DNA of 64,000 nucleotides. Origin: Megaustenia siamemsis (taxonomy: Eukaryota; Mollusca; Gastropoda; Stylommatophora; Ariophantidae). How positions within the stretch are numbered: position 1 is the first letter of the stretch; the number at the start of each line of letters is the position of its first letter. The position numbers and the translations under genes are program-made. The notes under the pieces were generated by a model. It was not told the DNA's origin, did no database searches, and was given only the letters and a program-made list of their open reading frames with translations. The stretch spans positions 40,171,736 through 40,235,735 of the forward strand of contig JAVIAB010000008.1 in assembly GCA_032433765.1 (NCBI GenBank), written 5' to 3'. Positions 1,865-52,837 of the stretch are shown here, piece by piece.

Positions 1865-2012
1865 GTCGAAAAAGCACATTCCCTGCTCGTCACACACTAG
1901 CGAAAGGAAGCTGGCTTCAGCACAGATAATCGAACTCCGTAGGACCGGCGATGACTTTGTCTCCCACCACGTTAGTCGTCTTTTACGACATGCGTGGCAG
2001 GTGACATTGGCG
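1865..2012 (+). repeat. Dispersed repeat R2, copy 1
   Basis: Shares an ordered series of blocks with 34181-34345: GAACTCCGTAG, ACCGGC, GATGACTTT or AGACCTTG, TTACGACATGCG and GGCAGGTG. It is not protein-like. Its right end passes directly into the 69-bp tandem array that follows, so the array seems to have grown from the end of R2. Confidence 0.6.
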
Positions 2013-2395
2013 CTTATTTCTTCTCTCCTGACAGTGGTCGTCCCTATAGCTATACGGGCGTGGCAGATAACATTGGCGCTTACCTTTTTTTTCCCCAGAC
2101 AGTGGTCAGGGCCCCAATAGCTATACGGGCGTGGTAGGTGACATTAGCTCTTATTTCTTCTCTCCTGACAGTGGTAGAGGGCCCCTATAGCTATACGGGC
2201 GTGGCAAGTGACATTAGCTCTTATTTCTTCTCTGCTGACAGTGGTCAGGGTCCCTATAGCTATACGGGAGTGACAAGTGACATTGGCTTCTATCTTCTCT
2301 TCCCTGAACGTGGTCACGGCCCCTATAGCTATACAGGCGTGACAAGTGACAGTGGCTCCTATCTTCTCCTCTCCTCTGATCGCGATTAGGGCCCC
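1988..2395. repeat. Minisatellite, unit about 69 bp, about 6 copies
   Basis: The block TATAGCTATACGGGCGTGG recurs near 2045, 2116, 2186, 2254 and 2323, each time followed by a GTGACATTgGC...CTTCTCTCCTGACAGTGGTC phrase. Spacing is 68-72 bp. Open frames on both strands here are a by-product of the repeat. Confidence 0.85.
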
Positions 2396-2634: not shown

Positions 2635-2640
2635 GTCCAT
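2635..2640. repeat. Left 6-bp target site duplication (GTCCAT)
   Basis: GTCCAT lies directly outside the left terminus and is repeated directly outside the right terminus at 15039-15044. A 6-bp duplication is the length known for Maverick/Polinton integration. Confidence 0.85.
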
Positions 2641-2700
2641 AGTAGTATACCAGGGTCCATTTGTTCGAATTTAGGCGCTAAATTAACAAAGATATATAGT

Positions 2701-2717
2701 AGGCGCGCGGCGCGCCT
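2701..2717. repeat. GC-only near-perfect palindrome near left terminus
   Basis: AGGCGCGCGGCGCGCCT can pair over 8 bases on each side of one central base. It lies 60 bp inside the terminus in otherwise AT-rich DNA and is mirrored at the other end. A role in replication or transposase binding is possible but not shown. Confidence 0.6.
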
Positions 2718-3107
2718 AATGTACTGTAGGCGCAGGGGGAGTTAACCGTGACCGCTGGTCCCAGTGACCCCGGAAGTGACCTGTTTATGTCTGGTGTATG
2801 CTGACTTTGGAGTTCTTGCTCGATAGTGATAGGTTAGTAGATTATACAACATCAATGAAAAACAATCAATATAAAACAGAAGACAAAGATATATTTTATT
2901 CTTTTATTATCTTAATAGGTGTATAACATACATTGATATTATATAACATTACAAAATACTCAGTACATTGAGTAAATATATAGTACAAGGATAACATTTA
3001 TTTATAGCTAGGTAGTTGCGCGTCTGCTTAGCTCTATGTCATAAATGAATCATAAGGGGTGATACTGTTAGAGATTCCTGGTTAGGCTAAGCTGGTAGTG
3101 TAAAGAG

Positions 3108-6100
3108 TTAAATATCTAAAGGCGTAGTCGAGACGTTATCATCAGCTACCTTTCTTTTTATATAGAAATAGGAAAGAGCATTTCTTGTTTGACTGTAGGA
3201 AAATATGGAATTATTTAAGACTTTGAAACCTACATTTTTCCCACCCTTGGCCTTTTGCGTGGCGAGAACCTCTAAAAACATATCTTTATCTAATTTGTTG
3301 TGTTGCTTGCTTAGCCCTTTACAACTGATTTTATCGTAATCCCCACTACAATGGTACGTCTTACTACATAAGCTAACAAGAGCTGTCCCTTCGTACTCTA
3401 GTTTAAAAAGCCCGGGCGTTCGTTTGGTGTACGCTTTAACATCCTTACAGCTTATACAGTTTGTCTTGCTAATATGTTCATCGCAAAACTCGGCAGGAAA
3501 CCAGTCTTTATATACGCTATTAAACTCATCCCGCAGACCTGACTTAACTATGTCCTCTAACTTAGGTGCACTTAAAGCCAAGTATAAACTATCAGTATCT
3601 GTTTCACATAACTGAAAGTTAGACCTATCCACAAACTTATCTAAGAACTCGAAATAAAAATCTAACATACGAAGTTTTGCATATTGATACACGAAGAAAC
3701 CGATTTGTAGGGGCAAGTCCCAAACAGTTTTCTTTTCTCCATCTCAATTTCAAAAAGAGCCTCCCCTACTTCAGTCATCTTTTTAAACCGGGAATTATTT
3801 ATCATTTTCGATATCTCATCCCCCTGAACATACGAGACAGCGCTATGATTGGCCTTATTGGTTAGAGTCTTCCCGTAGGCCGAGTTTCCAAGCAGTTTCA
3901 TCGTATCGCTTACTATAGATTGATTTTCGTCTAGATCACCAGCCCTCCTAGCGTCAGAAACCATTTCGCCAAACTTTTTAAAACAACTAGACGGTTGATA
4001 TTCTATCACTTGATAAATTTTTGTTACCTCTAGCCCATGATCTAAATACCATTTTAACAGTGGTGTTGCCAACAAAATTTTTTCTCCGACATAACTACCG
4101 ATTAGGGTGCGACGAGGGGTTGACAACAAGTTATGTTTGAGGGCATATTCACCCATAAACGGTCCAATATCGTCACGCGTGACATCAATATTTTTGAAAA
4201 TTGGAGTCATCTCACTGAAATGGTCCTTCAGGCGGTCGGGAACGTGTAGATCACATTCCACTAAACCAAAACACGTCCCATCTGAAACAGAAGTCAGAAT
4301 CTGTTTATCACTGAGAGGGAGCCCTTCTTTAGAGTAAGAGGGTCTAGCTCGAGGGATGGCTTTAGAAAGGAAAGCCCTAATGGTTGGGTCAGACTTTTTC
4401 AGAGCCTGCCACTCACATTCCCACATAACTTCTACTGGGACTTTTACCTCCTCGGTTAGGTAGGTGTGTATCTCACAGGTTTTTTCAAACAGCTCGAACA
4501 AGGGCTTATTATTAACAGGGTTTCTATCTTTATCTTTGGTGAGGGGACAGTCTTTGTGACCATGGTACAAACAACCATGAAAATTGTAGCCTCTTCTATT
4601 GGATTTATCCCACCCATCCACGGGGATGTTTCTATCACCTAACCGAAACTCCCTCCCGTTAAACTGAGTTTTCAACTCCACCCCTTTTTGGTGAGCGACC
4701 CACGTTAGCCACTCTCTACTTTGTTGGACATAATAGTTATCTTTTTCGACCCTAAACCCGGTCTCCATTCTTCTAATTATTGGATAATCTGTTGGCATTG
4801 GGTTCATCAGAGCCCAAAGATACAACGCGTTGGCATCGTAACCTTGGATGGCTTGACTACCTTTCCGCCCCTAATAAACGTTTTGCCTACCTCGTGATAC
4901 CTATGGAAAATTATAGAGGGACCCCCAACGATATTATCTCTAATCATTTTGTGTAGACTCGCCTGTTTGCTCGAACATAAACTAAACATTACACCACTAT
5001 CAACGGTCTTAAAAAGATACTTTAAACAAACACCCGGAACCGAAATGGCGTCTTTAAAACAGTCCACACCCCGATCCCCATAAAAACGAACCTGCTGCTC
5101 CAGGCTTCTAAAAAGGGGACTACATCTTTGTTGTTATACCACACCAAAAAGTCCCTAAGCGTGGTCATGTTATTGTCCTTCCAGACCTTTTTGCACAGGG
5201 CGTACTCCTCCTTGGAAATGTTGGAATTTTTTAACGACGAATAAAACGTTTCGTGTGGGGGTAGTTCTGTCTCGTCCAACTTTTGGGGGTCGTCTATATA
5301 TTCATAACAAAAGTAACCCTTTGTTTCACTAATCTTATAAGCCGCCAGATATTTACTATAGCTAAACCCGGGGGCTAGATAGTTTACTATATCTAAGAAT
5401 TTTAGATTCGGCGTTGCAATACACATAAAGTTATTGTTTCTTTTAACTATAAACTTGAACGGTTTTGCTACTTTGTAGTCTCCTTCCATTGTATCTTCCT
5501 CTTCTTCGATAACATCGGCATCTTCTTCCATACTATCGTCTTCTTCACCCACTTGCGCAGTGGCATCCATGAAGTGCCTTATCAAATAAGGTTTAATGAC
5601 GTTGATGTCATATTTCCCCGAGTTAAACCCTATCACTGGAAGCTCTTTTAAATACTCATCAAACCTAACTACTATCTTGTCTTTATTCAGTTCATGGAGT
5701 TGAGTAAAAATACTTTCAAACCGAGATCGCAATAACGAGTAGGCCTTATCAGCTATACTAGTAAGATAATCAACCATCTGACTAACTAAAACCTGCGGGT
5801 CACCCTTCGTTATGAAGCATTTTGGGGCCTCCCACCCTGGGACATTTGACGCTATAGAGCAGGAAAGGGGTACGTGTTTAGCTACAAAGGTAGTCGAGGG
5901 CGTCTCTTTGGGAACATTCCTACTATCAAAGTAACATTCATAATCGAATGTCGCCCTGAATGGGTAAATAAAACACTCTGGAGTACTGATCCCTTCAGCG
6001 CTGATCGCGTCCCATACACTTTCAGGTGAAGAGTAAACACCACCCTTATATGTCTCTACAGCCATATCCCCATTACAAGTTTTTTCGTGCCTATCCATAC

Positions 6101-7440
6101 GCCCAAACTTCTTACACAATTTTCCACATTTGCCACAAGAAAAGCTTTTACTAGACCTAGAAAGATCGTTTATATAAAAGAAGTGGTTTTTGTAAAGTAA
6201 AAGACGGAGAGTTTCGCTATAACTACTGCCACTTCTCAGGACAATACGCAAGGCTTGTTCAGAATCAAACTCAAAAATATCTATGTTTATTGAAAAAACA
6301 ATTTTCTAAGAGAGACATTTCAGCAAGAGTTACACCGGGAAAGCTACTTAACATTAGAGATGGGTTAAACTGTTTGAAAAGTAGTCTCGAAGCCTTCCTA
6401 AAATCTTTAACAGAGGCACCTCTATGGATAGCTAGACAACGGAAGAAGCAGAGATTATCATCGTAAACTTTAGATTTGGAGTCGTTTTGAAGGGTATTAA
6501 TACCGTGGTTAGAAGCAATGTAGGGTGGGATATCTAGCAGACACCCTATAGGATAATCTTGAAGTTTATAAACATAAACACTCGTACTGACTAATGCTTC
6601 TAAGGTATATTTGGTTGTCTCCCTGTTTTTATTTGCATACCCTAATATATCACTTTCATTTAAGCTATCAACAAACGTTTCAAAGTCATTTCTGTTGTTA
6701 ACTAACAAGGGTTTGTCTAACCCTGTCGCGTTATTCGAGCTGGCGTGAAAGTAACGCAGCCCCTGTGTCTCCCTATGTCTTAAAACTAGATGATGACTAT
6801 AATTCACCTTGAAACGCTTTTTCTGGGCTAGAAAAATTGGGTTTACAAGGGTCTTCCAATCTATAGGGGTATCAGGTTGTTGAAATATAGTGTACGTGTC
6901 CATGTATTTGTTCATACGTTCATGTGTTCTAATAGCTAACCAGTTGTTCTTATATATCTTCTTAATATCTTGAGGTAACTTATTTAAAGAGTCTATATCA
7001 TTAATAAGTCTTGTTCTCTTTGAGGGTTCTTGAGTCGAACTCTTTACTGCCCGCTTGCGTGAGGTTGTCGATACCAGGGGGCCTGCTGGCGTTGATCGTG
7101 TTGAGGTGTCCACAGCTGTGTCATGGCTAGCAAGATGTACGTGCAGATGGCTTGCCCCAGTAAAGCTTTGTTGACAGATATGGCAGATATGTGGGTTAGC
7201 ACTGGTCTCTTTCGAAGGTACGTGACCTGTTGACACAGGAGTTGGTGATGCAGGAACTGCTGATACAAAAGATACACGATGCTCTGTCTTGATATGTTTG
7301 GCAAGATTGTCAGCTCTATTATATACTCGTTCACAAACATCACATTTGTATTCCTGACACCCATGTACACTAGCAACGTGTCGTTTTAGGTCCCGGCTCC
7401 GGGTGAAAGTTTTGGAGCAGATATGACAAGTGTTAGACAT
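3108..7440 (-). pseudogene. DNA polymerase B of the Polinton-type element, left-arm copy, frameshifted
   Basis: This copy reads leftward from an ATG at 7440 to a stop at 3108, about 1,440 codons. In order it has two adjacent N-terminal C2H2 fingers and a third (CHICQQSFTG...), a low-similarity region, an OTU-like block (DDNLCFFRCLAIHRG and NHFFYI), another finger (CGKCGKLCKKF...), exonuclease motifs (FDYECYFD, FNSGKYDIN, YNNKDV), and polymerase motifs A (DANALYLWAL), B (LLGNSAYGK) and C (ETDTDSLYL). An insert between A and B contains FHGCLYHGH and WECEW. Compared with the right arm, the frame breaks near 6300, 5100, 4853 and 3735, mostly by single-base indels. All catalytic motifs survive as codons. 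The ATG directly follows a consensus splice acceptor, and an upstream open stretch to 7524 would lie in the intron. The copy is not functional as it stands, unless the indels are sequencing errors. Confidence 0.85.
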
Positions 7441-7690
7441 CTGTAGAAAAGAAATTGAAACATTACAACTAAAGAGTAACGAACAGTAAACATTACAAGA
7501 AAACAAAACAAGAAAAGTAAACAAGGAGAACTATTGAAATGAGATTACAAAAGTAACATGTGGATACTAAAAAACCAACTTATCGAAATAAGGTTACTAA
7601 AATAACACGTGGATACTAAACAACCAACTTATCGAAAATAGGTTACTAAAGTAACATACTATAACATTAAAGATCTAAGATAACACTTAC
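7441..7690 (-). other. Putative 5'-UTR intron, left arm
   Basis: The donor AAAAA|GTAAGT begins at 7690. A pyrimidine-rich acceptor ending CTACAG finishes at 7441, directly before the ATG. The interior holds two to three copies of a roughly 50-bp AT-rich repeat with GTTACTAAA and CCAACTTATCGAAA blocks. The arrangement is mirrored in the right arm. Confidence 0.6.
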
Positions 7691-7785
7691 TTTTTATGTG
7701 TTTGAAGGTACGAGACACATCAGTCGTCAACAACTATAAGCGAAAGTCTGATTACAAGCTTCACAGTCACGTTATATATACGCCA
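7691..7785 (-). promoter_or_regulatory. TATA-type promoter of the left polymerase copy
   Basis: TATATATAA lies at 7772-7780 on the minus strand. About 80 bases follow before the GTAAGT donor, consistent with a short non-coding first exon. RNA polymerase II use is inferred. Confidence 0.55.
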
Positions 7786-7930
7786 GAAAAACCGGAAGTG
7801 TTACTAAAAATAGAACTGACCGCTGATGCCATACCGGAAGTGTTACTAAAAATAGCTTTTGACTGCTGACGCGATGCCCGTGGAGTTTCTAAAAATAGAT
7901 TTTGACCTATGATGCAATACCAGGCAATTT
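7786..7930 (-). promoter_or_regulatory. Promoter-proximal repeats with CCGGAAGT boxes, left arm
   Basis: About three units of roughly 65 bp lie upstream of the TATA box. Each has a CCGGAAGTG or related block, then TTACTAAAAATAG, then a TGAC(C)GCTGATGC block. CCGGAAGT matches the ETS-family core. A similar GGAAGTGACC is found near the element terminus. Regulatory use is inference. Confidence 0.45.
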
Positions 7931-7939
7931 TATGATAGT

Positions 7940-8405
7940 TACGCCCCTTGACCCTTTATGAAGGGTACGCCAATGAAACTGTTAGAAATGGTAAATTTAC
8001 ACTCTAGGGTTACTCCAAACTTTACATTAGACATCCCCATAACAAAAATTTACTTAAAAGTCACTTTTATGGTTGTTACGCCCCTTGACCCTTTATGAGG
8101 GGACGCCCATGAAACTGTTACAAATAGTAAATGTACACTCTAAACTTACCCCAGATGTTATTTTAGACACCCCCATAGCAAGAATTTACATAAAAACAAC
8201 GTTTGAAATTTCTACCCATGTACCCATTTTTGACGGTTACGCCCATGAAACTGTTAAAAATAGTAAATTTAACATATAGACATACCCCAAACTTTATATT
8301 AAGCATCCCCATATCAAGAATTTACATAAAAACAACGTTTGAAATTACTACCCCTGTACCCTGTTTTGGCGGTTACGCCCATGAAATCGATAAAAAAATT
8401 GAAGT
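7940..8405. repeat. 136-bp tandem repeat, left arm (about 4 units)
   Basis: ACGCC(C/A)ATGAAAC blocks recur near 7969, 8106, 8241 and 8377. Each unit also contains TTACATAAAAACAACGTTTG-like and GTTACGCC blocks. Open frames of about 68 codons here arise from the repeat and are not called as genes. Confidence 0.85.
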
Positions 8406-8483
8406 TTAACCTATTGGCATACATCAAACATAATATGTGACACGCCCATGTATCAAATTTGCCTAAAAAATCAACCAAAAATT

Positions 8484-8657
8484 AGTAGTATAGATTGGCA
8501 CTTAGGATGGATAGACTATAAGGAAAAATGTAGACTCTCATATAAGGAAAAACGGCACCAAAAAATGTGCCTCGATGTACGGGTAGACTATTTATATAAG
8601 GATTTAGGTGCCTTCAAAGTCACATTTATCCGTCCTAAATGACATACTATACTACTA
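8484..8657. repeat. Central spacer bounded by inverted AGTAGTATA copies
   Basis: AGTAGTATAG starts at 8484 and CTATACTACT ends at 8657. These repeat the first nine bases of the outer termini in the same outward orientation. The 174-bp interior is only weakly self-complementary and has no homologue elsewhere in the window. It could be a tiny internal deletion derivative, an origin-like relic, or the loop of the original fold-back. Confidence 0.55.
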
Positions 8658-8744
8658 ATTTTTGGTTGATTTTTTAGGCAAATTTGATACATGGGCGTGT
8701 CACATATTATGTTTGATGTATGCCAATAGGTTAAACTTCAATTT

Positions 8745-9745
8745 TTTTATCGATTTCATGGGCGTAACCGCCAAAACTGGGTACAGGGGTAGTAATTTCA
8801 AAAGTTGTATTTATGTAAATTCTTGCTATGTGGATGCTTAATATAAAGTTTGTGCTATGTCTAGGTGTTAAATTTACTATTTTTAACAGTTTCATGGGCG
8901 TAACCGCCAAAAATAGGCAAGGGGGGTAGTAATTTCAAAAGTTGTTTTTATGTAAATTCTTGCTACGGAGATGCTTAATATAAAGTTTGGGGTATGTCTA
9001 GATGTTAATTTGACTATTTTTAACAGTTTCGTGGGCGTAACCGCCAAAAATGGGTAAGGGGTAGTAATTCCAAAAGTTGTTTTTTATGTAAATTCTTGAT
9101 ACAGGGATGACTAAAGTGAAGTTTGGGGTATGTCTAGGTGTTAAATTTCAATTTTTTATTGATTTCATGGGCGTAACCACCAAAAATGGGTACAGGGGTA
9201 GTAATTTCAAAAGTGATTTTTATGTAAATTCTTGATATGGGGATGCTTAATATAAAGTTTGGGTATGTCTAGAGGTTAAATTTACTATTTTTAACAGTTT
9301 CATGGGCGTAACCGCCAAAAATGGGTACAGGGGTAGTAATTTCAAACGTTGTTTTTATGTAAATTCTTGATATGGGGATGCTTAATATAAAGTTTGGGGT
9401 ATGTCTATATGTTAAATTTACTATTTTTAACAGTTTCATGGGCGTAACCGTCAAAAATGGGTACATGGGTAGAAATTTCAAACGTTGTTTTTATGTAAAT
9501 TCTTGCTATGGGGGTGTCTAAAATAACATCTGGGGTAAGTTTAGAGTGTACATTTACTATTTGTAACAGTTTCATGGGCGTCCCCTCATAAAGGGTCAAG
9601 GGGCGTAACAACCATAAAAGTGACTTTTAAGTAAATTTTTGTTATGGGGATGTCTAATGTAAAGTTTGGAGTAACCCTAGAGTGTAAATTTACCATTTCT
9701 AACAGTTTCATTGGCGTACACTTCATAAAGGGTCAAGGGGCGTAA
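8745..9745. repeat. 136-bp tandem repeat, right arm (about 8 units)
   Basis: TTTCATGGGCGTAACCGCC blocks recur near 8756, 8893, 9028, 9165, 9298, 9435, 9571 and 9706, a 136-bp period. The right arm has twice the left-arm copy number, which accounts for the whole length difference between the arms. Confidence 0.88.
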
Positions 9746-9754
9746 CTATCATAA

Positions 9755-9898
9755 AATTGCCTGGTATTGCATCATAGGTCAAAATCTATTTTTAGAAACT
9801 CCACGGGCATCGCGTCAGCAGTCAAAAGCTATTTTAGTAACACTTCCGGTATTGCATCAGCGGTCAGTTCTATTTTTAGTAACACTTCCGGTTTTTCT
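9755..9898 (+). promoter_or_regulatory. Promoter-proximal repeats with CCGGAAGT boxes, right arm
   Basis: Mirror image of 7786-7930: CACTTCCGG blocks spaced about 55-65 bp, alternating with CTATTTTTAG(T/A)AAC blocks, directly upstream of the TATA box. Confidence 0.45.
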
Positions 9899-9992
9899 GG
9901 CGTATATATAACGTGACTGTGAAGCTTGTAATCAGACTTTCGCTTATAGTTGTTGACGACTGATGTGTCTCGTACCTTCAAACACATAAAAA
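9899..9992 (+). promoter_or_regulatory. TATA-type promoter and first exon of the right polymerase copy
   Basis: TATATATAA at 9903-9911, followed about 80 bases later by the donor AAAAA|GTAAGT at 9993. Transcription would start near 9935, which is inferred from spacing only. Confidence 0.55.
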
Positions 9993-10243
9993 GTAAGTGT
10001 TATCTTAGATCTTTAATGTTATAGTATGTTACTTTAGTAACCTATTTTCGATAAGTTGGTTGTTTAGTATCCACGTGTTATTTTAGTAACCTTATTTCGA
10101 TAAGTTGGTTTTTTAGTATCCACATGTTACTTTTGTAACCTCATTTCGATAGTTCTCCTTGTTTACTTTTCTTGTTTTGTTTTCTTGTAATGTTTACTGT
10201 TCATTACTCTTTAGTTGTAATGTTTCAATTTCTTTTCTACAGA
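9993..10243 (+). other. Putative 5'-UTR intron, right arm
   Basis: The GTAAGT donor at 9993 and the TTCTTTTCTACAG acceptor at 10243 bracket 251 bp. The polymerase ATG follows immediately at 10244. The same arrangement is present in the left arm. Confidence 0.6.
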
Positions 10244-13200
10244 TGTCTAACACTTGTCATATCTGCTCCAAAACTTTCACCCGGAGCCGGGACCTAAAAC
10301 GACACGTTGCTAGTGTACATGGGTGTCAGGAATACAAATGTGATGTTTGTGAACGAGTATATAATAGAGCTGACAATCTTGCCAAACATATCAAGACAGA
10401 GCATCGTGTATCTTTTGTATCAGCAGTTCCTGCATCACCAACTCCTGTGTCAACAGGTCACGTATCTTCGAAAGAGACCAGTGCTAACCCACATATCTGC
10501 CATATCTGTCAACAAAGCTTTACTGGGGCAAGCCATCTGCACGTACATCTTGCTAGCCATGACACAGCTGTGGACACCTCAACACGATCAACGCCAGCAG
10601 GCCCCTGGTATCGACAACCTCACGCAAGCGGGCAGTAAAGAGTTCGACTCAAGAACCCTCAAAGAGAACAAGACTTATTAATGATATAGACTCTTTAAAT
10701 AAGTTACCTCAAGATATTAAGAAGATATATGAACAACTGGTTAGCTATTAGAACACATGAACGTATGAACAAATACATGGACACGTACACATATTTCATC
10801 AACCTGATACCCCTATAGATTGGAAGACCCTTGTAAACCCAATTTTTCTAGCCCAGAAAAAGCGTTTCAAGGTGAATTATAGTCATCATCTAGTTTTAAG
10901 ACATAGGGAGACACAGGGGCTGCGTTACTTTCACGCCAGCTCGAATAACGCGACAGGGTTAGACAAACCCTTGTTAGTTAACAACAGAAATGACTTTGAA
11001 ACGTTTGTTGATAGCTTAAATGAAAGTGATATATTAGGGTATGCAAATAAAAACAGGGAGACAACCAAATATACCTTAGAAGCATTAGTCAGTACGAGTG
11101 TTTATGTTTATAAACTTCAAGATTATCCTATAGGGTGTCTGCTAGATATCCCACCCTACATTGCTTCTAACCACGGTATTAATACCCTTCAAAACGACTC
11201 CAAATCTAAAGTTTACGATGATAATCTCTGCTTCTTCCGTTGTCTAGCTATCCATAGAGGTGCCTCTGTTAAAGATTTTAGGAAGGCTTCGAGACTACTT
11301 TTCAAACAGTTTAACCCATCTCTAATGTTAAGTAGCTTCCCGGTGTAACTCTTGCTGAAATGTCTCTCTTAGAAAATTGTTTTTCAATAAACATAGATAT
11401 TTTTGAGTTTGATTCTGAACAAGCCTTGCGTATTGTCCTGAGAAGTGGCAGTAGTTATAGCGAAACTCTCCGTCTTTTACTTTACAAAAACCACTTCTTT
11501 TATATAAACGATCTTTCTAGGTCTAGTAAAAGCTTTTCTTGTGGCAAATGTGGAAAATTGTGGAAGAAGTTTGGGCGTATGGATAGGCACGAAAAAACTT
11601 GTAATGGGGATATGGCTGTAGAGACATATAAGGGTGGTGTTTACTCTTCACCTGAAAGTGTATGGGACGCGATCAGCGCTGAAGGGATCAGTACTCCAGA
11701 GTGTTTTATTTATCCATTCAGGGCGACATTCGATTATGAATGTTACTTTGATAGTAGGAATGTTCCCAAAGAGACGCCGTCGACTACCTTTGTAGCTAAA
11801 CACGTACCCCTTTCCTGCTCTATAGCGTCAAATGTCCCAGGGTGGGAGGCCCCAAAATGCTTCATAACGAAGGGTGACCCGCAGGTTTTAGTTAGTCAGA
11901 TGGTTGATTATCTTACTAGTATAGCTGATAAGGCCTACTCGTTATTGCGATCTCGGTTTGAAAGTATTTTTACTCAACTCCATGAACTGAATAAAGACAA
12001 GATAGTAGTTAGGTTTGATGAGTATTTAAAAGAGCTTCCAGTGATAGGGTTTAACTCGGGGAAATATGACATCAACGTCATTAAACCTTATTTGATAAGG
12101 CACTTCATGGATGCCACTGCGCAAGTGGGTGAAGAAGACGATAGTATGGAAGAAGATGCCGATGTTATCGAAGAAGAGGAAGATACAATGGAAGGAGACT
12201 ACAAAGTAGCAAAACCGTTCAAGTTTATAGTTAAAAGAAACAATAACTTTATGTGTATTGCAACGCCGAATCTAAAATTCTTAGATATAGTAAACTATCT
12301 AGCCCCCGGGTTTAGCTATAGTAAATATCTGGCGGCTTATAAGATTAGTGAAACAAAGGGTTACTTTTGTTATGAATATATAGACGACCCCCAAAAGTTG
12401 GACGAGACAGAACTACCCCCACACGAAACGTTTTATTCGTCGTTAAAAAATTCCAACATTTCCAAGGAGTACGCCCTGTGCAAAAAGGTCTGGAAGGACA
12501 ATAACATGACCACACTTAGGGACTTTTTGGTGTGGTATAACAACAAAGATGTAGTCCCCTTTCTAGAAGCCTTGGAGCAGCAGGTTCGTTTTTATGGGGA
12601 TCGGGGTGTGGACTGTTTTAAAGACGCCATTTCGGTTCCGGGTGTTTGTTTAAAGTATCTTTTTAAGACCGTTGATAGTGGTGTAATGTTTAGTTTATGT
12701 TCGAGCAAACAGGCGAGTCTACACAAAATGATTAGAGATAATATCGTTGGGGGTCCCTCTATAATTTTCCATAGGTATCACGAGGTAGGCAAAACGTTTA
12801 TTAGGGGCGGAAAGGTAGTCAAAGCCATCCAAGGTTACGATGCCAACGCGTTGTATCTTTGGGCTCTGATGAACCCAATGCCAACAGATTATCCAATTAT
12901 TAGAAAAATGGAGACCGGGTTTAGGGTCGAAAAAGATAACTATTATGTCCAACAAAGTAGAGAGTGGCTAACGTGGGTCGCTCACCAAAAAGAGGTGGAG
13001 TTGAAAACTCAGTTTAACGGGAGGGAGTTTCGGTTAGGTGATAGAAACATCCCCGTGGATGGGTGGGATAAATCCAATAGAAGAGGCTACAATTTTCATG
13101 GTTGTTTGTACCATGGTCACAAAGACTGTCCCCTCACCAAAGATAAAGATAGAAACCCTGTTAATAATAAGCCCTTGTTCGAGCTGTTTGAAAAAACCTG

Positions 13201-14570
13201 TGAGATACACACCTACCTAACCGAGGAGGTAAAAGTCCCAGTAGAAGTTATGTGGGAATGTGAGTGGCAGGCTCTGAAAAAGTCTGACCCAACCATTAGG
13301 GCTTTCCTTTCTAAAGCCATCCCTCGAGCTAGACCCTCTTACTCTAAAGAAGGGCTCCCTCTCAGTGATAAACAGATTCTGACTTCTGTTTCAGATGGGA
13401 CGTGTTTTGGTTTAGTGGAATGTGATCTACACGTTCCCGACCGCCTGAAGGACCATTTCAGTGAGATGACTCCAATTTTCAAAAAATATTGATGTCACGC
13501 GTGACGATATTGGACCGTTTATGGGTGAATATGCCCTCAAACATAACTTGTTGTCAACCCCTCGTCGCACCCTAATCGGTAGTTATGTCGGAGAAAAAAT
13601 TTTGTTGGCAACACCACTGTTAAAATGGTATTTAGATCATGGGCTAGAGGTAACAAAAATTTATCAAGTGATAGAATATCAACCGTCTAGTTGTTTTAAA
13701 AAGTTTGGCGAAATGGTTTCTGACGCTAGGAGGGCTGGTGATCTAGACGAAAATCAATCTATAGTAAGCGATACGATGAAACTGCTTGGAAACTCGGCCT
13801 ACGGGAAGACTCTAACCAATAAGGCCAATCATAGCGCTGTCTCGTATGTTCAGGAGGATGAGATATCGAAAATGATAAATAATTCCCGGTTTAAAAAGAT
13901 GACTGAAATAGGGGAGGCTCTTTTTGAAATTGAGATGGAGGAAAAGAAAACTCTTTGGGACTTGCCCCTACAAATCGGTTTCTTCGTGTATCAATATGCA
14001 AAACTTCGTATGTTAGATTTTTATTTCGAGTTCTTAGATAAGTTTGTGGATAGGTCTAACTTTCAGTTATGTGAAACAGATACTGATAGTTTATACTTGG
14101 CTTTAAGTGCACCTAAGTTAGAGGACATAGTTAAGTCAGGTCTGCGGGATGAGTTTAATAGCGTATATAAAGACTGGTTTCCTGCCGAGTTTTGCGATGA
14201 ACATATTAGCAAGACAAACTGTATAAGCTGTAAGGATGTTAAAGCGTACACCAAACGAACGCCCGGGCTTTTTAAACTAGAGTACGAAGGGACAGCTCTT
14301 GTTAGCTTATGTAGTAAGACGTACCATTGTAGTGGGGATTACGATAAAATCAGTTGTAAAGGGCTAAGCAAGCAACACAACAAATTAGATAAAGATATGT
14401 TTTTAGAGGTTCTCGCCACGCAAAAGGCCAAGGGTGGGAAAAATGTAGGTTTCAAAGTCTTAAATAATTCCATATTTTCCTACAGTCAAACAAGAAATGC
14501 TCTTTCCTATTTCTATATAAAAAGAAAGGTAGCTGATGATAACGTCTCGACTACGCCTTTAGATATTTAA
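10244..14570 (+). pseudogene. DNA polymerase B of the Polinton-type element, right-arm copy, frameshifted
   Basis: Mirror copy of the left-arm gene, from ATG 10244 to a stop at 14570. Approximate positions: fingers 10254-10405 and 10492-10563; OTU-like motifs 11218-11262 and 11489; further finger 11533-11602; exonuclease I near 11732 (FDYECYFD), II near 12047 (FNSGKYDIN) and III near 12540 (YNNKDV); an acidic Asp/Glu tract near 12135-12205; polymerase A near 12835 (DANALYLWAL), B near 13780 (LLGNSAYGK) and C near 14080 (ETDTDSLYL). The Vsr-like insert is at about 13050-13270. The frame breaks near 10605, 10727, 10785, 11340 and 13485. The longest uninterrupted part, 11360-13492, spans the exonuclease and motif A. 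The family makes protein-primed replication polymerases of linear DNAs. None of the breaks coincides with those of the left arm. Confidence 0.87.
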
Positions 14571-14675
14571 CTCTTTACACTACCAGCTTAGCCTAACCAG
14601 GAATCTCTAACAGTATCACCCCTTATGATTCATTTATGACATAGAGCTAAGCAGACGCGCAACTACCTAGCTATA

Positions 14676-14681
14676 AATAAA
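14676..14681 (+). promoter_or_regulatory. Polyadenylation signal AATAAA after the right polymerase copy
   Basis: AATAAA lies about 105 bases after the stop codon, with further AATAAA-like words near 14770. The left arm has the mirrored signals. Use is inferred. Confidence 0.4.
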
Positions 14682-14960
14682 TGTTATCCTTGTACTATAT
14701 ATTTACTCAATGTACTGAGTATTTTGTAATGTTATATAATATCAATGTATGTTATACACCTATTGAGATAATAAAAGAATAAAATATATCTTTGTCTTCT
14801 GTTTTATATTGATTGTTTTTCATTGATGTTGTATAATCTACTGACCTATCACTATCGAGCAAGAACTCCAAAGTCAGCATACACCAGACATAAACAGGTC
14901 ACTTCCGGGGTCACTGGGACCAGCGGTCACGGTTAACTCCCCCTGCGCCTACAGTACATT

Positions 14961-14977
14961 AGGCGCGCCGCGCGCCT
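14961..14977. repeat. GC-only near-perfect palindrome near right terminus
   Basis: AGGCGCGCCGCGCGCCT is the mirror of the element at 2701-2717 and lies about 60 bp inside the right terminus. Confidence 0.6.
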
Positions 14978-15038
14978 ACTATATATCTTTGTTAATTTAG
15001 CGCCTAAATTCGACCCATATGGACCCTGGTATACTACT

Positions 15039-15044
15039 GTCCAT
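15039..15044. repeat. Right 6-bp target site duplication (GTCCAT)
   Basis: Direct repeat of 2635-2640, directly outside the terminal GGTATACTACT. Confidence 0.85.
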
Positions 15045-18843: not shown

Positions 18844-19215
18844 GAGTTCCTACAAAAATAGATGTACACTTTTAGCACTGTATAAACACCGAAGCTGTTG
18901 TATGGCCATACAATAAATATATGTAGTAACGAAGTATGAGGATGAAACTGAATAATCGCATTTCGTTGTTGCTTTGACTATCCTTCACATGTCCGCTGAA
19001 ACAAGATGGCCGTGAATCATAGGTACGTGGTGTCTGATTGAACCAGCGAAAATAAACGTACTTCGGGCGTATACAAACATTATAGAACAAATACGACAAA
19101 GCACTATCAGCAATGAATAGAGCAAAAAAACTTACAACACGGAGTATTTGTATCAAAGAACAAAGTCCCCAGAAGCCACCAGTGTAACAAGAACAAGTGG
19201 ATCGTGTTCGTGCCG

Positions 19216-19583
19216 CGTACAAACGTAGCCCAAACATAGCCCAAACATAGCCCAAACGTAGCGCAAACATAGCCCAAACATAGCCCAAACGTAGCCCAAA
19301 CGTAGCCCAAACGTAGCCCATACGTAGCGCAAACATAGCCCAAACGTAGCCCAAACATAGCCCAAACATAGCCCAAACGTAGCCCAAACATAGCCCAAGC
19401 ATAGCCCAAACATAGCCCAAACGTAGCCCAAACATAGCGCAAACATAGCCCAAACATAGCCCAAACATAGCCCAAACGTAGCCCAAACATAGCCCAAACA
19501 TAGCCCAAACTTAGCCCAAACGTAGCCCAAACATAGCCCAAACATAGCCCAAACGTAGCCCAAACGTAGCCCAAACATAGCCA
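19216..19583. repeat. 11-bp minisatellite, about 33 units
   Basis: Unit TAGCCCAAACR. Because 11 is not divisible by 3 and the unit lacks minus-strand stops, all three minus frames stay open through the array and encode the same FGLCLGYVWAM-type peptide. These frames are not called as genes. Confidence 0.92.
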
Positions 19584-20640
19584 CAACATCAGTGAGTTTA
19601 GAATTGCAAATGTCCAACCAAACGCTAGGAAATATTTAGAGGAAATGGTAGAAACTGGCGCCTTGCAAAAATGAACAAAATGAATTTTTAAGAAAAAAGA
19701 AAAAAAGAAAGAAATCGGAACCGATGCCGACAATGTTAAACATTTAGAGGCTCCAAAGAGTTTTCAATGAATCGGATTATCATATTAATATCTGTCATGT
19801 TACAAAGCGTCCACATATAGAACATCGTTAACTTGCTCATACAATATTCATGACATTCATTAATTAAAATGTGTATTGCCTATATATGTATATATCACTT
19901 TTGTTCGTTTTCCTACGTTATGTATGTCTTTCTCTCTCTCTCTGTCTGTCTGGTTCTTTCTTCCATTTTGGTATCTTTATTGTCACTTTCTCCAATGTGT
20001 TTGTATTCTCTTTATCTTTTCCATTGCCCATATTTATTTTCATCTTTCCACTATATATCCCCGCTCTTGTATTTTCTTCTCACCATTTTGTTTACACCCC
20101 CTCTCGTCTATTTTCCCCTCTCGCCATTTCACTTACTCCCAGCTCTGTTTCCACTCCACCATCACAATATTTCTACTCATGCATATAAACAAGCAGTGCA
20201 AAATCGCCTGATTACGATTATTCCTTTTTTGCGACGCCAAAGCGCGACAGCAACAATAAACAGCAACCCACGGCTGCTGTTATTTATAGACACTGACTAA
20301 AACCACCCACAATACTCAAGTACACCCAACCCTAATACTTCGAGTCAGATGATCACAAAATCTAATTACGTAATTGATTATTGCGGGGATATCCTTCGTT
20401 TAATACGAAACTAATATAAACATTCTGTGAAATTAATATATAGATTAATGACAGTTTGTCAAGTATTACTTTTTTAAATATTTCTAGCAAGAAAATATGA
20501 TATTGCTGTTTGAATGCTTGTTAGATGAGAATGTATTAAAGTGCGTAACTTATCTCCCTTGTGCGAAATTATGAGTCTATATATAGATCATGGCTCTTCA
20601 ATATTTTAAACTTAACACCACTAGTGTATATTTCGTGAGG
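19584..20640. other. Unannotated stretch, pyrimidine-rich at 19920-20160
   Basis: Contains CT/TC-rich tracts that keep several overlapping plus frames open; no protein family recognised. Confidence 0.45.
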
Positions 20641-25185: not shown

Positions 25186-25189
25186 TTAT

Positions 25190-26160
25190 AAAGAATGGAA
25201 CCTAAACATAAAGAATGGAACTCTAAGTATAAAGAATGGAACTATAACCATACAGAATAGAACTCTGACTATAAAGAATGGAACTCTAAGCATAAAGAAT
25301 AGAACTCTGACTATAAAGAATGGAACTATAACCATAAAGAATAGAACTCTGACTATAAAGAATGGAACTATAACCATAAAGAATAGAACTCTGACTATAA
25401 AGAATGGAACTATAACCATAAAGAATAGAACTCTGACTATAAAGAATGGAACTCTAAGTATAAAGAATGGAACTCTGACTATAAAGAATGGAACTCTAAT
25501 TATAAAGAATAGAACTCTGACTATAAAGAATGGAACTCTAAGTATAAAGAATGGAACTCTGACTATAAAGAATGGAACTCTAATTATAAAGAATAGAACT
25601 CTGACTATAAAGAATGGAACTCTAAGTATAAAGAATGGAACTCTGACTATAAAGAATGGAACTATAACTATAAAGAATAGAACTCTGACTATAAAGAATG
25701 GAACTATAACCATAAAGAATGGATCTCTGTGCATACAGAATGGAGCACTGAGCTTAAAGAATGGAACTCTAAGCATAAAGAATGGATCTCTGTGCATACA
25801 GAATGGAGCACTGAGCTTAAAGAATGGAACTCTAAGCATAAAGAATGGAACTCTGTGCATACAGAATGGAGCACTGAGCTTAAAGAATGGAACTCTAAGC
25901 ATAAAGAATGGAACTCTAAGCATAAAGAATGGATCTCTATGCATAAAGAATGGAGCACTGAGCTTAAAGAATGGAACTCTAAGCATAAAGAATGGATCTC
26001 TGTGCATAAAGAATGGAGCACTGAGCTTAAAGAATGGAACTCTAACCATAAAGAATGGATCTCTATGCATAAAGAATGGAGCACTGAGCTTAAAGAATGG
26101 AACTCTAAGCATAAAGAATGGATCTCTGTGCATACAGAATGGAACTCTAAGCATTAGTCT
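25190..26160. repeat. 21-bp minisatellite with 63-bp higher-order unit, about 46 units
   Basis: Basic unit AAAGAATGGAACTCTAAGCAT. From about 25705 the array is organised in 63-bp blocks (ATCTCTGTGCAT, GAGCACTGAGCTT and AACTCTAAGCAT variants). The 21-bp period keeps frames open on both strands (322 codons on minus, 142 on plus). No codon or motif evidence supports a protein. Confidence 0.92.
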
Positions 26161-41008: not shown

Positions 41009-43122
41009 TAGTCCGTTCAGAAATTCATAATCACACCTGAATTAGTTTTGCGTGATAACCGCTTGTTATTTTGGTTTCAAAGTTTGCATGCAATCTTAGA
41101 ATGTTGATGACGTTATAGAAATATTTTTTTGCTCTGAGAAATTTGATCTAATTTAAAAGTTTTCTTCTTTAGGCTATATTAAATTCACCCTGTTCGAATT
41201 TGCCACAATTTTAGGATATATACATTAATTTGGTGCGGTCGTTCACGTAAAATAGTTTGGCTATTGCAGAAACACTAACTTCAGGAAAATCCCGTGCACA
41301 AAACTGAATTGTTATTGAATGACATGACGCACCACGGCCTTGTCATTAATTACCGAAGGGAAGGCGTATCTTTATTAATTTTGTGAAGACTCAGTAGACA
41401 ATTTGTTGACTTTAAATACCAACATTTATATCTAAATTACAATGAGTTTGAAATGCAAATTTATAACTATGCAAAAGGTTACTGTTTTATTATATCAGCA
41501 CTTCCTTAGGGAATCCAAGATGGGGCATTTATATTGTGATATTCATGACCCGGAGAGCACGAACGCAACTCGCACTTGGTCGTAATAGATCGTCATTTTC
41601 TCGTTGGATTAAACAAGACTCAGAGTGCACTCATGTCAATCAAGGAAGGAAAAGGAAAGTCGACAGCTTTGACATGGATGTCATAAAACGTGAGATATTG
41701 AAAATGTTTGCTAATAATGTACTTGTTACTTTCAGGAATTTGAAATTAAAATTGCATGCAGACTGCAATATTGACATTTCTAAAAGTACTCTATGGAAGA
41801 TTGTGCGAGGAGCCGGCTTCACTTTCAGAAAAACTGTTGGGGGCAGGAATATTATTTGTGAAAAACCACACTTGGTCATTGCTAGAAGCAAATACCTGAG
41901 ACAGATTCGTGAGCGGCGGAGTGAACGGTATGATATTGTATATTTGGACGAATCATGGGTCAACGCACACCACACCTATGCTAAAGAATGGCAGTCAGTA
42001 AATGGCAAACTCAAAAGAACAATTCCGAGCAGCAAAGGCCGGCGCATTATATTAACGCATGCTGGAAGCACTGAAAACGGCCTTGTCCATGATGCGGGAC
42101 TTATTTTCCAATCAAAAAGTACCGACGGTAGGGACTACCATACTGAAATGAATGGAAACATTTTCAGGCACTGGTTGGAGAACGATCTTTTACCAATCCT
42201 GACAGACCTTCATGCATAGTCATGGATAATGCATCATACCACAATGTCGTATCAGAGGAAGACAAAGTGTCTACTGCATTAAATACAAAAGAGCAAATTA
42301 GGACATGGCTTGCAAATGAAAATGTCAAATTTGACGACACATATTTAAAACCCGAATTGTTACAACTTGTGAAGAATACGATTAAGAAAAAGGTGTATCA
42401 TGTTGACAAAATCATTGAGAAATACGGCCACACCTCTCTTCGACTCCCTGCATATCATGCGCACCTTATCCAATCGAACTTGTCTTGGCTCACGTCAAAG
42501 GACAAGTTGCAGAACAGGACAGGACGTTTAAAATGTGTGATGTTGAAGTTCTGACACGCGAGTCTCTCTCAAAAATAGACATTCCGTTCTGGAAGAAGTG
42601 TGTTGAACATGTGCTGCGGGTGGAAGATGAGTACTGGAAACGAGATGGATTACTTTTTGTCCAGCCAGTAATGATTATCAACCTCTTGGAATCGTCAGAT
42701 TCGGAATGATTAAAATTAAGATGAATTCAATTCCAGCTGCAGTTAGGACGTCCTGGGGTCTAATGGTGACAAAAGGACAAGACTAATTGTAACCAATTGA
42801 ATTCATGTTTGCAAATACACATAACCAACAACACCCACAATTAAGCACTATGTAGATACGCCGCTGACAAGAACTGCAGTCAACTGGAAAATTTAACACG
42901 ATTACTGTAAACTCTAAAATTTGAATCAACTTGTGTGATATCGTCATAAAAGATCAAAGGAATTCGCTGATGTGCAAAATCTGTTGTGTTTGTGGAATAA
43001 AAAATATCAAAATCTTTGCGTCATCAATATTCTAAGATTGCATGCAAAATGTGAAAGCAAAATAACAAGCGATTGTCACGCAAAACTAATTCAGGTGTGA
43101 TTATGAATTTCTGAACGGACTA
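41009..43122 (+). mobile_element. Tc1/mariner-superfamily transposon, Sailor-like (element 1)
   Basis: Terminal inverted repeats of about 105 bp begin TAGTCCGTTCAGAAATTCAT, and the right end is its reverse complement with few mismatches. TA duplication at 41007-41008 and 43123-43124. It carries one broken transposase and sits inside a 43-bp minisatellite unit, splitting TTATTC|TA|GCAATC. Confidence 0.9.
41442..42709 (+). pseudogene. Transposase of element 1, DDE type, frameshifted
   Basis: Starts MSLKCKF at 41442 and ends LLESSDSE at 42709, about 422 codons. An N-terminal helix-turn-helix region (SFSRWI, DISKSTLWKIVRGAGFTFRK) precedes the catalytic domain: first Asp in YLDESWVNAHH, second in VMDNASYHNV, Glu in a PIEL segment. 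The second Asp to Glu spacing is about 83 residues, as judged from the relative in element 2. Tc1/mariner enzymes with such a long gap are known as DD82E/Sailor. The frame shifts near 41575, 42215 and 42470. The enzyme would be nuclear and act on the terminal repeats. Confidence 0.85.
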
Positions 43123-43468: not shown

Positions 43469-45571
43469 TAGCTCGTTTCAAATCACTTGCCCAACTTCAA
43501 AACGCTATTGCTCAGAAACCGTTTGTTAAAGACTGTTGAAATTTTCCAAATGTTATTAGAATGCAAAAGACCCTTTAAATGTATATTTAACAAATATCTT
43601 GCAGCTGCAGTTTTCTTAAAGCGGCGAATTTCTTTGATGTTTGTCAAAATTGTAAATTGTGAACCCCTAAATAATAGAAATTACCGTAGTTGCTGGTCTA
43701 TGATTAATTTTCACTAGGTAAATGCGTGGCCGTAATGGGGAAATAACTGAATAAGGAAAAACACCAGGAGAATTATTGTCTTCTCAGTTCGAGGACGGAC
43801 GATAATATCAAGGTATACCTGTATGTCCAATTTTCATAGTTGTGTGGTCCTGAAAAGGACCGTTTGTTGAACTAATTTAAGGTAATATAGGGGCCAACAT
43901 TGTGGGGGCTATATACTTTCATTCTGAATGAGACGAGTCTAAAAGATTAATAACTGTTTGGGGTTGAACATTCAACAAACCATCATTTTTCCAATATTCC
44001 TCTTCCTGTTTTAAGACGTGATCTTCACATTTAGCCCAATAATCTTTGTCTATATTTAATAAAGCGAGATTAGCAAGAGTCTTTACATCGCTTATTTTGA
44101 ATGTTGTATTTTCATCTGCCACTTGTCCTTTTAATTTTGCCCAGATTAGTTCTATTGGATTTAAATGAGCATGGTAAGGTGGCAGCCTCAAACTTATATG
44201 ACCGTGCTCTTGGATAATCTTATCTATTTGAAAAATCTTTGTCCTTTGTTTTTGCTTTACTAGAGATAGTAATTCAGGTTTTAAGTACATGTTATTAAAT
44301 TGTATGTGCTCCTTTGTGAGCCATATCTTAATAGCATCTTTTGTACTGGATGACGTCGGGACTTTATCTTCAAGTGCAACAATGTTGTGGTACGCTGCAT
44401 TGTCCATTATTAGGCAAGATGGTCGATCTAGTGATGGTAGAACAGAATTTTCAATCCAATGTCTAAATATGTGACCATTCATCTCAGAGTGATAATCCCG
44501 ATTGTCTATGGATTTTGAAAGAAAAATGAGCTCTGCATTCTGTATTAGTCCATGTTATCGACTACCTGTATGAGCAATTATCAAGCGCTGTCCTTTGCTG
44601 CTAGGTATTAATCTCTTAATCTTTCCATCTGATGACTGCCATTCCCTTTGGTTAGTGTGGTGAGCATTGATCCATGTTTCATCCAAGTACACAATATCAT
44701 AACCTTGCTTGCGCACCTCTTTTACTTCACGTAAGTACTTGCTTCTCATGACTACTATATGTGGCTTCTCACAGATGATGTTTCGTCCATTGTAATACTT
44801 TCTGAATGTAAAGCCTGCAGCTCTCACATTCCTCCATAATTTAGACTTTGATATTTCAATACTGTTGTTCTTTTTCAGCGAAATTTTTAATTTTCTTATT
44901 GTAACAGTTTCATTCATACCCAACATTTTGCGAATTTCACTTCTAATAAGTTCACTGTCGAAATTATCCAACATTTTTGCTCTTCCTTGTGATTTTGTAT
45001 ATTTTGAACATTGATCGTCACGTGCTTGAATCCAGCGATTAAATGACCGTTTAGATAAATCCAAAATGTGTCTTGTCCTATTCTCAGGGTTTTCTAAAGA
45101 ATGAAATAATCTTCCTCGTTTAGCCTCTTTGCAAAAATAGTCATACATTTTTATTGCGATGTTTTGTAAACTGCAGAATTTCATTTTAAGACTCATGATA
45201 AATGTTATTGTTCCACGTCTCCACCTATGAATGAACGGAAATGGAACACATAATTTCTCAAGTGTCTAATTGTGTCACAAAGCCACGGCGAAAGCGTGCA
45301 AAAACGTCAATTTGACCGTGTATGGATTTTTACTCGCTATTTTCAACTTAAAATACTGTAAACATTAAGTTTTGACTACATCAATGGGTCGTTATAAATT
45401 TATATAAATCAAATAAGCAACAATAATAGCCAAATGTTTTTTTTTTAATGAAATTAATTCCCTGTTGGGTTCTAATCATTATAACTATACATGCAAATTT
45501 TGATCAACTAACAAAAAGCGGTTAAAAAGATATTGATTTTAAAAGTTGGGCACGAGTTATGAAACAAGCTA
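43469..45571 (-). mobile_element. Tc1/mariner-superfamily transposon, Sailor-like (element 2)
   Basis: Imperfect terminal inverted repeats of about 60 bp begin TAGCTCGTTTCA on the left and TAGCTTGTTTCA on the right (reverse complement), with a shared GTGCCCAACTT/TTGCCCAACTT block. TA duplication at 43467-43468 and 45572-45573. Inserted at the same phase of the 43-bp repeat as element 1 but in opposite orientation. The termini and coding sequence differ clearly, so it is a separate family. Confidence 0.9.
43919..45196 (-). pseudogene. Transposase of element 2, DDE type, one internal stop
   Basis: About 425 codons from ATG 45196 to a stop at 43919. A single in-frame TAA lies at about 44557-44555; otherwise the frame is open. 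It has an N-terminal helix-turn-helix (SFNRWIQA; EISKSKLWRNVRAAGFTFRK), first catalytic Asp in YLDETWINAHH, second in LIMDNAAYHN and Glu in HLNPIELIWAKLKG. I count 83 residues between the second Asp and the Glu. About half the residues match element 1 by eye. It could still make a peptide ending before the second Asp, so it would be inactive. Loss appears recent. Confidence 0.88.
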
Positions 45572-52000: not shown

Positions 52001-52837
52001 TTTATAGAAGGTGTAAAAAAAAAAAAAGTAAAGTAAAGAGCCCCGTCACGCCAAGTGGTGTATAGGAAATATGGTGTTAGTGACCCGTCACGCCAAGTGG
52101 TGTATAGGGAATATGGTGTTAGTGACCCGTCACGCCAAGTGGTGTATAGGGAATATGATGTTAGTGACCCGTCACGCCAAGTGGTGTATAGGGAATATGG
52201 TGTTAGTGACCCGTCACGCCAAGTGGTGTATAGGGAATATGATGTTAGTGACCCGTCACGCCAAGTGGTGTATAGGGAATATGGTGTTAGTGACCCGTCA
52301 TGCCAAGTGGTGTATAGGGAATATGGTGTTAGTGACCCGTCATGCCAAGTGGTGTATAGGGAATATGGTGTTAGTGACCCGTCATGCCAAGTGGTGTATA
52401 GGGAATATGGTGTTAGTGACCCGTCACGCCAAGTGGTGTATAGGGAATATGGTGTTAGTGACCCGTCATGCCAAGTGGTGTATAGGGAATATGGTGTTAG
52501 TGACCCGTCACGCCAAGTGGTGTAAAGGGAATATGGTGTTAGTGACCCGTCACGCCAAGTGGTGTAAAGGGAATATGGTGTTAGTGACCCGTCATGCCAA
52601 GTGGTGTATAGGGAATATGATGTTAGTGACCAATATTTTTACCGACCGTCAGTCCACGATTTTTGGGATAATGTGGTCGGTAATACGCCAGTGCTGCTTT
52701 ATTTTCTCATAAAAAACCTGTACCCATTTAAGGCTGGGTGAACATGAAACTGTCGGATGGGATCGAACCTTACCTCTTGTCCTTTGTAATCCAGTTCACT
52801 AACCACTGAACTATCGCGACTTCCTTTATAGAAGGTG
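52001..52837 (-). mobile_element. SINE1 with an internally expanded 42-bp array and target duplication
   Basis: Body at 52014-52824, flanked by TTTATAGAAGGTG (52001-52013 and 52825-52837). The tRNA head is at 52824 and the middle at 52630-52740. The 3' domain is repeated about 14 times. The element is otherwise an ordinary SINE1, showing that the expansion happened after insertion. Confidence 0.9.
52044..52631. repeat. 42-bp minisatellite inside SINE1, about 14 units
   Basis: Unit CGTCACGCCAAGTGGTGTAT plus AGGGAATATGGTGTTAGTGA plus CC, exactly the sequence that occurs once in every other SINE1. The period is 14 codons, so two plus frames stay open (156 and 213 codons). They are not genes. 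Confidence 0.95.

Follow-up and report, generated by a model that had tools for sequence, protein, structure and literature searches.

Does a palindromic transposon record a single accident of replication, or does it belong to a lineage that multiplies in this form? The question is raised by a stretch of 64,000 nucleotides of the stylommatophoran gastropod Megaustenia siamemsis (assembly GCA_032433765.1, contig JAVIAB010000008.1, positions 40,171,736 to 40,235,735 of the forward strand), here called the window. Positions 2641-15038 of the window form an inverted repeat of 12.4 kb in total, with two arms of about 6 kb that each carry a gene for a Polinton-type DNA polymerase B (PolB). An earlier reading of the letters by themselves (the sequence-only reading) took this element for the defective product of one Polinton replication event. 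Our analysis points to a different answer: the element is probably an old member of a palindromic, Polinton-derived family that is established in this genome and would replicate through a hairpin and use a borrowed integrase.

Results

The window element

Outside the central arrays, the arms are 99.6% identical (21 substitutions, 13 of them transitions, in 5,301 aligned bases), with about a dozen short indels in addition. The first 20 bases are the same at both outer ends, which start with AGTAGT, and the 6-bp duplication GTCCAT is present on both sides. Two forms of the Polinton end motif were checked, (AGT)2//(ACT)2 and (AG)3//(CT)3, and the element has the former. The window holds exactly four copies of AGTAGTATA, two at the outer ends and two at inner sites, a number reached in none of 100 shuffles. 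Comparison of the 2-kb flanks yielded only matches of chance length (20 bp or less, best E-value 0.49). Because a fold-back read would repeat the flank and these flanks are unrelated, an artefact of this kind is excluded for the window.

Apart from two overlapping frames, all frames of at least 100 amino acids (aa) in the element are pieces of PolB, and none corresponds to an integrase, ATPase, protease or capsid gene. Short terminal inverted repeats around a unique interior, the typical Polinton arrangement, are not the layout of this element. Rfam and tRNA scans gave no match. The palindrome with identical ends and flanking duplication, as described in the sequence-only reading, is therefore upheld by the arm identity and the shared end bases, and so are the lack of other Polinton core genes, as judged from these frames, and the derivation from a Polinton, as judged from the PolB family, the 6-bp duplications and the end motif. 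The inverted repeat does not extend through the centre, which is non-palindromic for 113 bp, and it is uneven in the 136-bp arrays, of which the right one is about 545 bp longer. Each arm does contain one PolB gene, but both copies are broken.

Each PolB copy is split into four frames of at least 100 aa that read from the centre outward. No break is common to the two copies, as read from the borders of matches to the relative P0001; in the compared part of PolB, the left arm has one frame-changing indel, the right arm has four, and none is shared. With a 710-aa piece we obtained 1,953 relatives among 7,991 scored candidates, including proteins of Littorina and Nucella. The best identity is 58%, to P0001 (over 99%), and a Littorina protein is 46% identical. 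Pfam identifies N-terminal C2H2 fingers in the window PolB, and on its C-terminal piece DNA_pol_B_2 scores 21.9 bits, under the cut-off of 25.8; this domain is above the cut-off in the relatives P0003 and P0020 and absent from P0001. In the aligned relatives we recognise an OTU-like block, exonuclease motifs, a Vsr-like block that separates palm motif A from motif B, and motif C. By comparison with them, the left PolB would have putative terminal-protein and OTU-like regions, an exonuclease, a Vsr-like insert and a palm. Foldseek, run with a weak model of P0001, listed viral polymerases, viral OTU proteases and Vsr, with no match at E <0.001 (Vsr 1vsr: probability 0.98, E 0.27). In a PDB sequence search the C-terminal piece had no match and the 710-aa piece only weak zinc-finger matches, and neither the 710-aa piece nor the alignment found a relative in IMG/VR. 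By homology, the window PolB is a family B polymerase, and it is presumably protein-primed. Terminal-protein and OTU domains are described for polinton PolBs (PMC11071308), and the Vsr-like insertion appears as a mark of group I Mavericks (PMC10328495).

Copies elsewhere in the genome

The same assembly (2.59 Gb) was searched with the outermost 3 kb of the left arm, and the matches, at least 41 of them scored, represent 36 distinct insertions including the window. Twenty of the 35 further insertions were fetched as 10-kb stretches, and the other 15 were judged by one probe each. In total, 33 of the 35 further copies are palindromic (34 of 36 with the window). Among the fetched copies the figure is 18 of 20, with longest paired stretches that are 98.4-99.75% identical; in L017, a copy of 15.8 kb whose centre is altered, the paired stretch covers 0.9 kb only. 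All 15 remaining insertions show arm sequence in inverted order, the 1.4-kb probe lying 8.3-9.7 kb in from the end. At the centre of L017, positions 7293-9129 hold additional sequence and an N gap of 100 bases.

The far ends of the 18 palindromic copies were read separately, that of L009 being taken from L002. All 18 read ACTACT and all have a perfect 6-bp duplication, which adjoins the end directly in 16 cases; L018 and L026 have one extra ACT, followed by the intact duplication, so that a third ACT is seen at 2 of the 36 ends read. Near ends are AGTAGT in the window and in 19 of the 20 copies, and AGAAGT in L014. The third ACT would fit jumping-back at protein-primed ends, and slippage after insertion would fit as well; jumping-back is discussed for Maverick end motifs (PMC8097293).

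Two fetched copies are not palindromes. In L022, the second arm is truncated and the outside flank is repeated inverted (L022:1-1972 and 6529-8501), which would be either a rearrangement or an assembly fault. L025 retains a single arm and the loop, followed by 88 bp from the opposite end (87 of 88 identical), all within its own duplication, and is most likely a deletion derivative. We considered L025 as an ancestral solo monomer and rejected this, because its junction lies inside the loop and a remnant of the second end is kept.

The C-terminal PolB piece gave at least 116 scored matches among 8,824 candidates, 96-100% identical. Among the 116 matches listed, 52 make 26 divergent, outward-facing pairs 8.3-12.7 kb apart, and within 20 kb no two matches converge or lie on the same strand. 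Since 32 of these matches lie in open frames of at least 1,400 aa, intact frames exist in the genome.

Arm similarity and selection

Arm distances were compared in 38 rows, with 17 elements represented by both arms, over 0.7-1.6 kb; rows that were too short were left out here and in the tree. Within these 17 elements the two arms are 0-0.7% apart, and for most of them the distance to the nearest other lineage is 4-6%, the closer cases being the young subfamilies L009/L011/L012, L014/L015/L016/L018 and L027/L028. The tree and split-site comparison (36 rows, 15 elements with both arms) yielded 48 differences between arms, none of which also splits the arms of another element, and 202 informative columns that separate elements and yet agree within each element. 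Arms are sisters in the tree in 11 of the 15 pairs. If the arms were inherited separately, arm-specific differences common to relatives would be expected; as none is seen, the arms appear to have been re-equalised. Within the PolB segment compared, 15 frame-changing indels occur in one arm only and one in both arms (of L028), a ratio which argues that equalisation took place mostly before or at insertion.

PolB evolves under purifying selection: across 105 pairs from 15 lineages, which are not independent of each other, the median ratio of non-synonymous to synonymous divergence (dN/dS) is 0.175, with dS of 0.103 and dN of 0.019. These are 15 of 22 rows, six near-identical subfamily members and the left arm of the window having been omitted; 6 of the 22 contain one or two in-frame stops.

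The centre

Twelve centres could be aligned, that of the window and those of 11 of the 20 fetched copies with both inner flanks. The border AGTAGT[A/G]TA is present on both sides of the loop in all 12, the loop plus motifs measures 139-195 bp, and 10 of the 12 loops are homologous. Because homologous loops with the same border occur in lineages 4-6% apart, the junction looks inherited for most lineages.

Seven of the 12 loops were compared with the terminal repeat of a full-length Polinton from the same genome (C51:95.54 Mb, described below), and six match it. The window loop is 90% identical over 100 bp and stops 20 bp before the terminus, and the L027 loop is 84% identical over 120 bp, to the last base; the L009 loop has no match. 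When inner ends are compared with the first 30 bases of the Polinton terminus, L028 agrees at 30 of 30, and seven elements including L028 agree at 21 or more on one or both sides. The inner ends of the window share 20 and 17 of these bases, and those of L009, L011, L021 and L023 share 13-16, no better than the outer ends of the palindromes (14-18). These observations allow two readings. The centre may be a former terminus, the 3' end of which annealed back to an inner motif copy and primed the second arm, or it may be a Polinton-derived mini-element that was caught at the dyad. No 6-bp direct duplication was found at the inner borders, and the sequence beside the inner motifs is symmetrical; the missing duplication mildly favours the folded-back terminus.

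Full-length Polintons and a possible source of integrase

The full-length Polinton at C51:95.54 Mb was reached via a putative capsid gene and read in five pieces. It is 14,502 bp long, with the duplication TACATG and terminal repeats of about 380 bp, and its PolB has the C-terminus toward its own end, as in the palindrome arms. Its best match to the arm is 72% over 742 bp, and elsewhere the match is mainly at the protein level.

A related PolB, together with other Polinton genes, is also present on QGON01000029.1 (L062), a contig of a tubeworm-symbiont metagenome-assembled genome. L062 has an rve plus chromo integrase above the Pfam cut-offs, an ATPase whose Adeno_IVa2 match is just above the cut-off and whose Pox_A32 match is under it, and a protease resembling Peptidase_C5 that also stays under the cut-off. 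Its presumed capsid frames match no Pfam family, and the 437-aa frame also matches no NCBIfam family or PDB sequence; by size and place, this frame is a putative major capsid protein. It has 2,773 relatives; among the 120 listed, every named one is labelled as a hypothetical or uncharacterised protein, and many come from tubeworms, including Lamellibrachia and Ridgeia. L062 is probably host DNA, that is, an animal Polinton contaminating the public symbiont genome. Its PolB points inward, opposite to that of the window, and gene order varies between lineages; the comparison of orientation rests on the Polinton of the snail's own genome and not on L062. Another candidate relative, L063, was dropped, its match spanning 64 residues only.

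Searched against the own genome, the L062 integrase gave at least 113 scored matches (112 without a stop) and the 437-aa frame at least 96 (95 without a stop). For 39 of the 113 integrase matches listed, a match to the 437-aa frame follows 2.6-2.9 kb downstream on the same strand. Full-length Polintons thus seem numerous and recently active in this genome, and integrase is available in trans given the abundance of its genes. Among the matches listed, none of the 116 to PolB lies within 25 kb of any of the 113 to the integrase or the 96 to the putative capsid protein. Use of the full Polinton's integrase by the palindromes is a guess, because the outer ends share little beyond AGTAGTATA with those of the full element; the palindromic family probably borrows its integrase.

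We also observed two equal-scoring putative capsid genes back to back, 3.8 kb apart, at C8:47235124 (-) and 47240207 (+), with one integrase match between them, the only capsid pair within 25 kb among the 96 matches listed. This arrangement suggests a rearranged or joined pair of Polintons. A simple palindrome was rejected, given 1.2 kb between the genes that has no inverted match and the presence of the integrase match.

Discussion

The results presented here fit best with the window element being an old copy of a palindromic Polinton-derived family, a reading that we regard as likely. The accident assumed in the sequence-only reading is not supported, given that the palindromic form is standard among the copies, the junction is common to lineages and PolB is under purifying selection. 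Similarly, the full-length parent more than 95% identical to an arm that it envisaged is not among the matches listed, the one sampled Polinton being far more distant. Its other expectations fared better. Palindromic copies do recur with different 6-bp duplications, in every one of the 18 copies read at both ends; the orientation of PolB in the full Polinton of this genome agrees with a polymerase-side end duplicated head to head; and the distance between PolB and integrase matches accords with an element that encodes no integrase. Free linear replication before integration is still the best reading of the evidence, and we infer a snap-back origin of the palindrome.

The arms would have been re-equalised at or before insertion, most simply via a hairpin replication intermediate. 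Under this model, the element would give rise to linear copies whose 5' ends carry terminal protein. A single strand, once displaced, could then fold into a 6-kb hairpin, the base of which would offer a ready double-stranded origin, such that PolB might start there and copy round the loop. The arms would become equal if mismatches within the hairpin were corrected or if one arm were copied by fold-back, and the duplex palindrome would be inserted by an integrase from full-length Polintons. The family itself probably originated when the PolB-side end of a Polinton was duplicated by fold-back synthesis. Tentatively, and with slightly more doubt than conviction, we go further and propose that such elements may form a self-maintaining class of double-headed transposons: palindromes devoid of capsid and integrase genes, which would replicate as free linear DNA by protein priming through the 6-kb hairpin, copy or correct one arm from the other in each cycle, thereby purging one-armed lesions, and parasitise the integrase of full Polintons.

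Alternatively, palindromes could repeatedly arise afresh when replicating full-length Polintons fold back at a single hot spot, each being a dead end; the event of the sequence-only reading would then have happened many times. This would account for arms that were nearly equal at insertion and that copy the PolB-side half of a Polinton in the same orientation, in a genome where full-length Polintons seem abundant. Against this, none of the 36 insertions resembles a full Polinton (15 of them as judged by the 1.4-kb probe only), the PolB matches listed keep apart from the capsid and integrase matches listed, and the PolB of the one full Polinton read is only 72% identical over its best 742 bp; the homology of 10 of 12 aligned loops, with the same border, also argues for inheritance. 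We consider repeated re-making unlikely. Hardly any more credible, and if anything a shade less so, is the possibility that two independently inherited arms were kept alike after insertion by chromosomal gene conversion. Long inverted repeats do convert each other, and the indel found in both arms of L028 is what this process would leave, but 15 of the 16 frame-changing indels are confined to one arm and the arms of the window have many differences that are not shared.

Two further explanations appear highly improbable, and to the same degree. A single fortuitous defective element, or a tail-to-tail double insertion, has nothing in its favour beyond the lone copy in the window; it is refuted by recurrence, that is, by many copies of the same form with duplications of their own, and the inner borders lack the 6-bp direct duplication. 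An assembly or fold-back read artefact would resemble L022, with its inverted flank, and not the window and the 18 of 18 other copies in which unlike flanks carry matching 6-bp duplications and the arms have private differences.

Several observations weigh against the palindromic family with hairpin replication that we favour. An intact centre is missing from 9 of the 20 long stretches, and the loops of L009 and L011 have no homology to that of the window, sharing only the border and the inner arm. For L009, L011 and L012, some arm from a different element matches or exceeds the own partner in similarity, and the arms of L011, L012, L015 and L016 are unpaired in the tree, where the branches are of almost zero length. 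Among the 116 PolB matches listed, 64 have no partner. Between the window arms there are 5 synonymous and 6 non-synonymous differences, a number too small to reveal a relaxation of selection once the element had inserted. The 417-aa N-terminal frame of the window has no terminal-protein match, only zinc fingers being among the 50 matches listed, and the structure models are weak (mean predicted local distance difference test scores of 67 and 55), with no PDB match reaching E 0.001. The outer ends, compared with the one full Polinton read, agree at 14-18 of 30 bases and share little beyond the terminal motif. Finally, the free linear form, the protein-linked ends and the transcripts of the model are predictions from genome sequence.

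Palindromic defective genomes of adenovirus, a linear DNA replicated by protein priming, likewise have one end duplicated head to head. Those genomes are by-products, whereas the family described here is amplified, selected and inserted into chromosomes. Parvovirus rolling-hairpin replication also has hairpin intermediates; by comparison, we saw no nickase gene in the window family, and the proposed hairpin would span a 6-kb arm and use a protein primer. With group I Mavericks/Polintons, the family shares the PolB family, the 6-bp duplications and the (AGT)2//(ACT)2 ends (PMC8097293; PMC10328495). It differs from them in lacking integrase, ATPase, protease and capsid genes, in its length of 12.4 kb and in having PolB in both halves; moreover, its terminal repeats make up nearly the whole element, compared to 46-1,447 bp in intact vertebrate Mavericks. 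KolobokP composite-like transposons are another case of unusual long terminal repeats in mollusc transposons, but they have direct repeats, a DDD/E transposase and no PolB (PMC9587614). Among the papers listed from a mostly non-subscription literature on palindromic, snap-back, head-to-head, long-repeat or non-autonomous Polintons and on octopus or mollusc cases, we found no such family.

A family in which the arms are alike within each copy while the copies diverge would be a genomic record of a free linear replication step. To our knowledge, such replication of Polintons has been deduced from gene content and not from its products. Arm equalisation would also give a simple reason for favouring a palindrome, in that a broken arm could be restored from the other before insertion, and the notion of a satellite that parasitises Polintons becomes testable.

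Features of the window

The coordinates of the element and its parts are collected in Table 1.

Table 1. Parts of the palindromic element and their positions in the window
Feature	Position	Strand	Basis
Left target-site duplication GTCCAT	2635..2640	.	sequence read
Left arm: outer end AGTAGTATACC through inner terminus motif	2641..8492	+	
Left PolB, four broken frames, reads outward; zinc fingers	3108..7524	-	Pfam (zinc fingers)
49-bp repeats upstream of left PolB	7532..7656	+	
136-bp tandem array, left arm, about 3.5 units	7951..8436	+	
Inner Polinton-terminus motif AGTAGTATA, left of centre	8484..8492	+	
Central loop between inner motifs; strictly non-palindromic 113 bp at 8514-8626	8493..8647	.	
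Inner Polinton-terminus motif AGTAGTATA, right of centre	8648..8656	-	
Right arm, in inverted orientation, with a 136-bp array about 545 bp longer	8648..15038	-	
136-bp tandem array, right arm, about 7 units	8754..9718	-	
49-bp repeats upstream of right PolB	10026..10151	-	
Right PolB, four broken frames, breaks elsewhere than left, reads outward	10159..14570	+	
Right target-site duplication GTCCAT	15039..15044	.	sequence read

Just outside the left end of the element, window 1992-2392 consists of about six tandem units of 66-71 bp. Elsewhere in the window, minisatellite-like repeats at 18872-19733, 25186-26157 and 52055-52712 yield long periodic open frames, and the damaged frames at 41536-42219 and 43919-45196 resemble a Tc1/mariner-type transposase.

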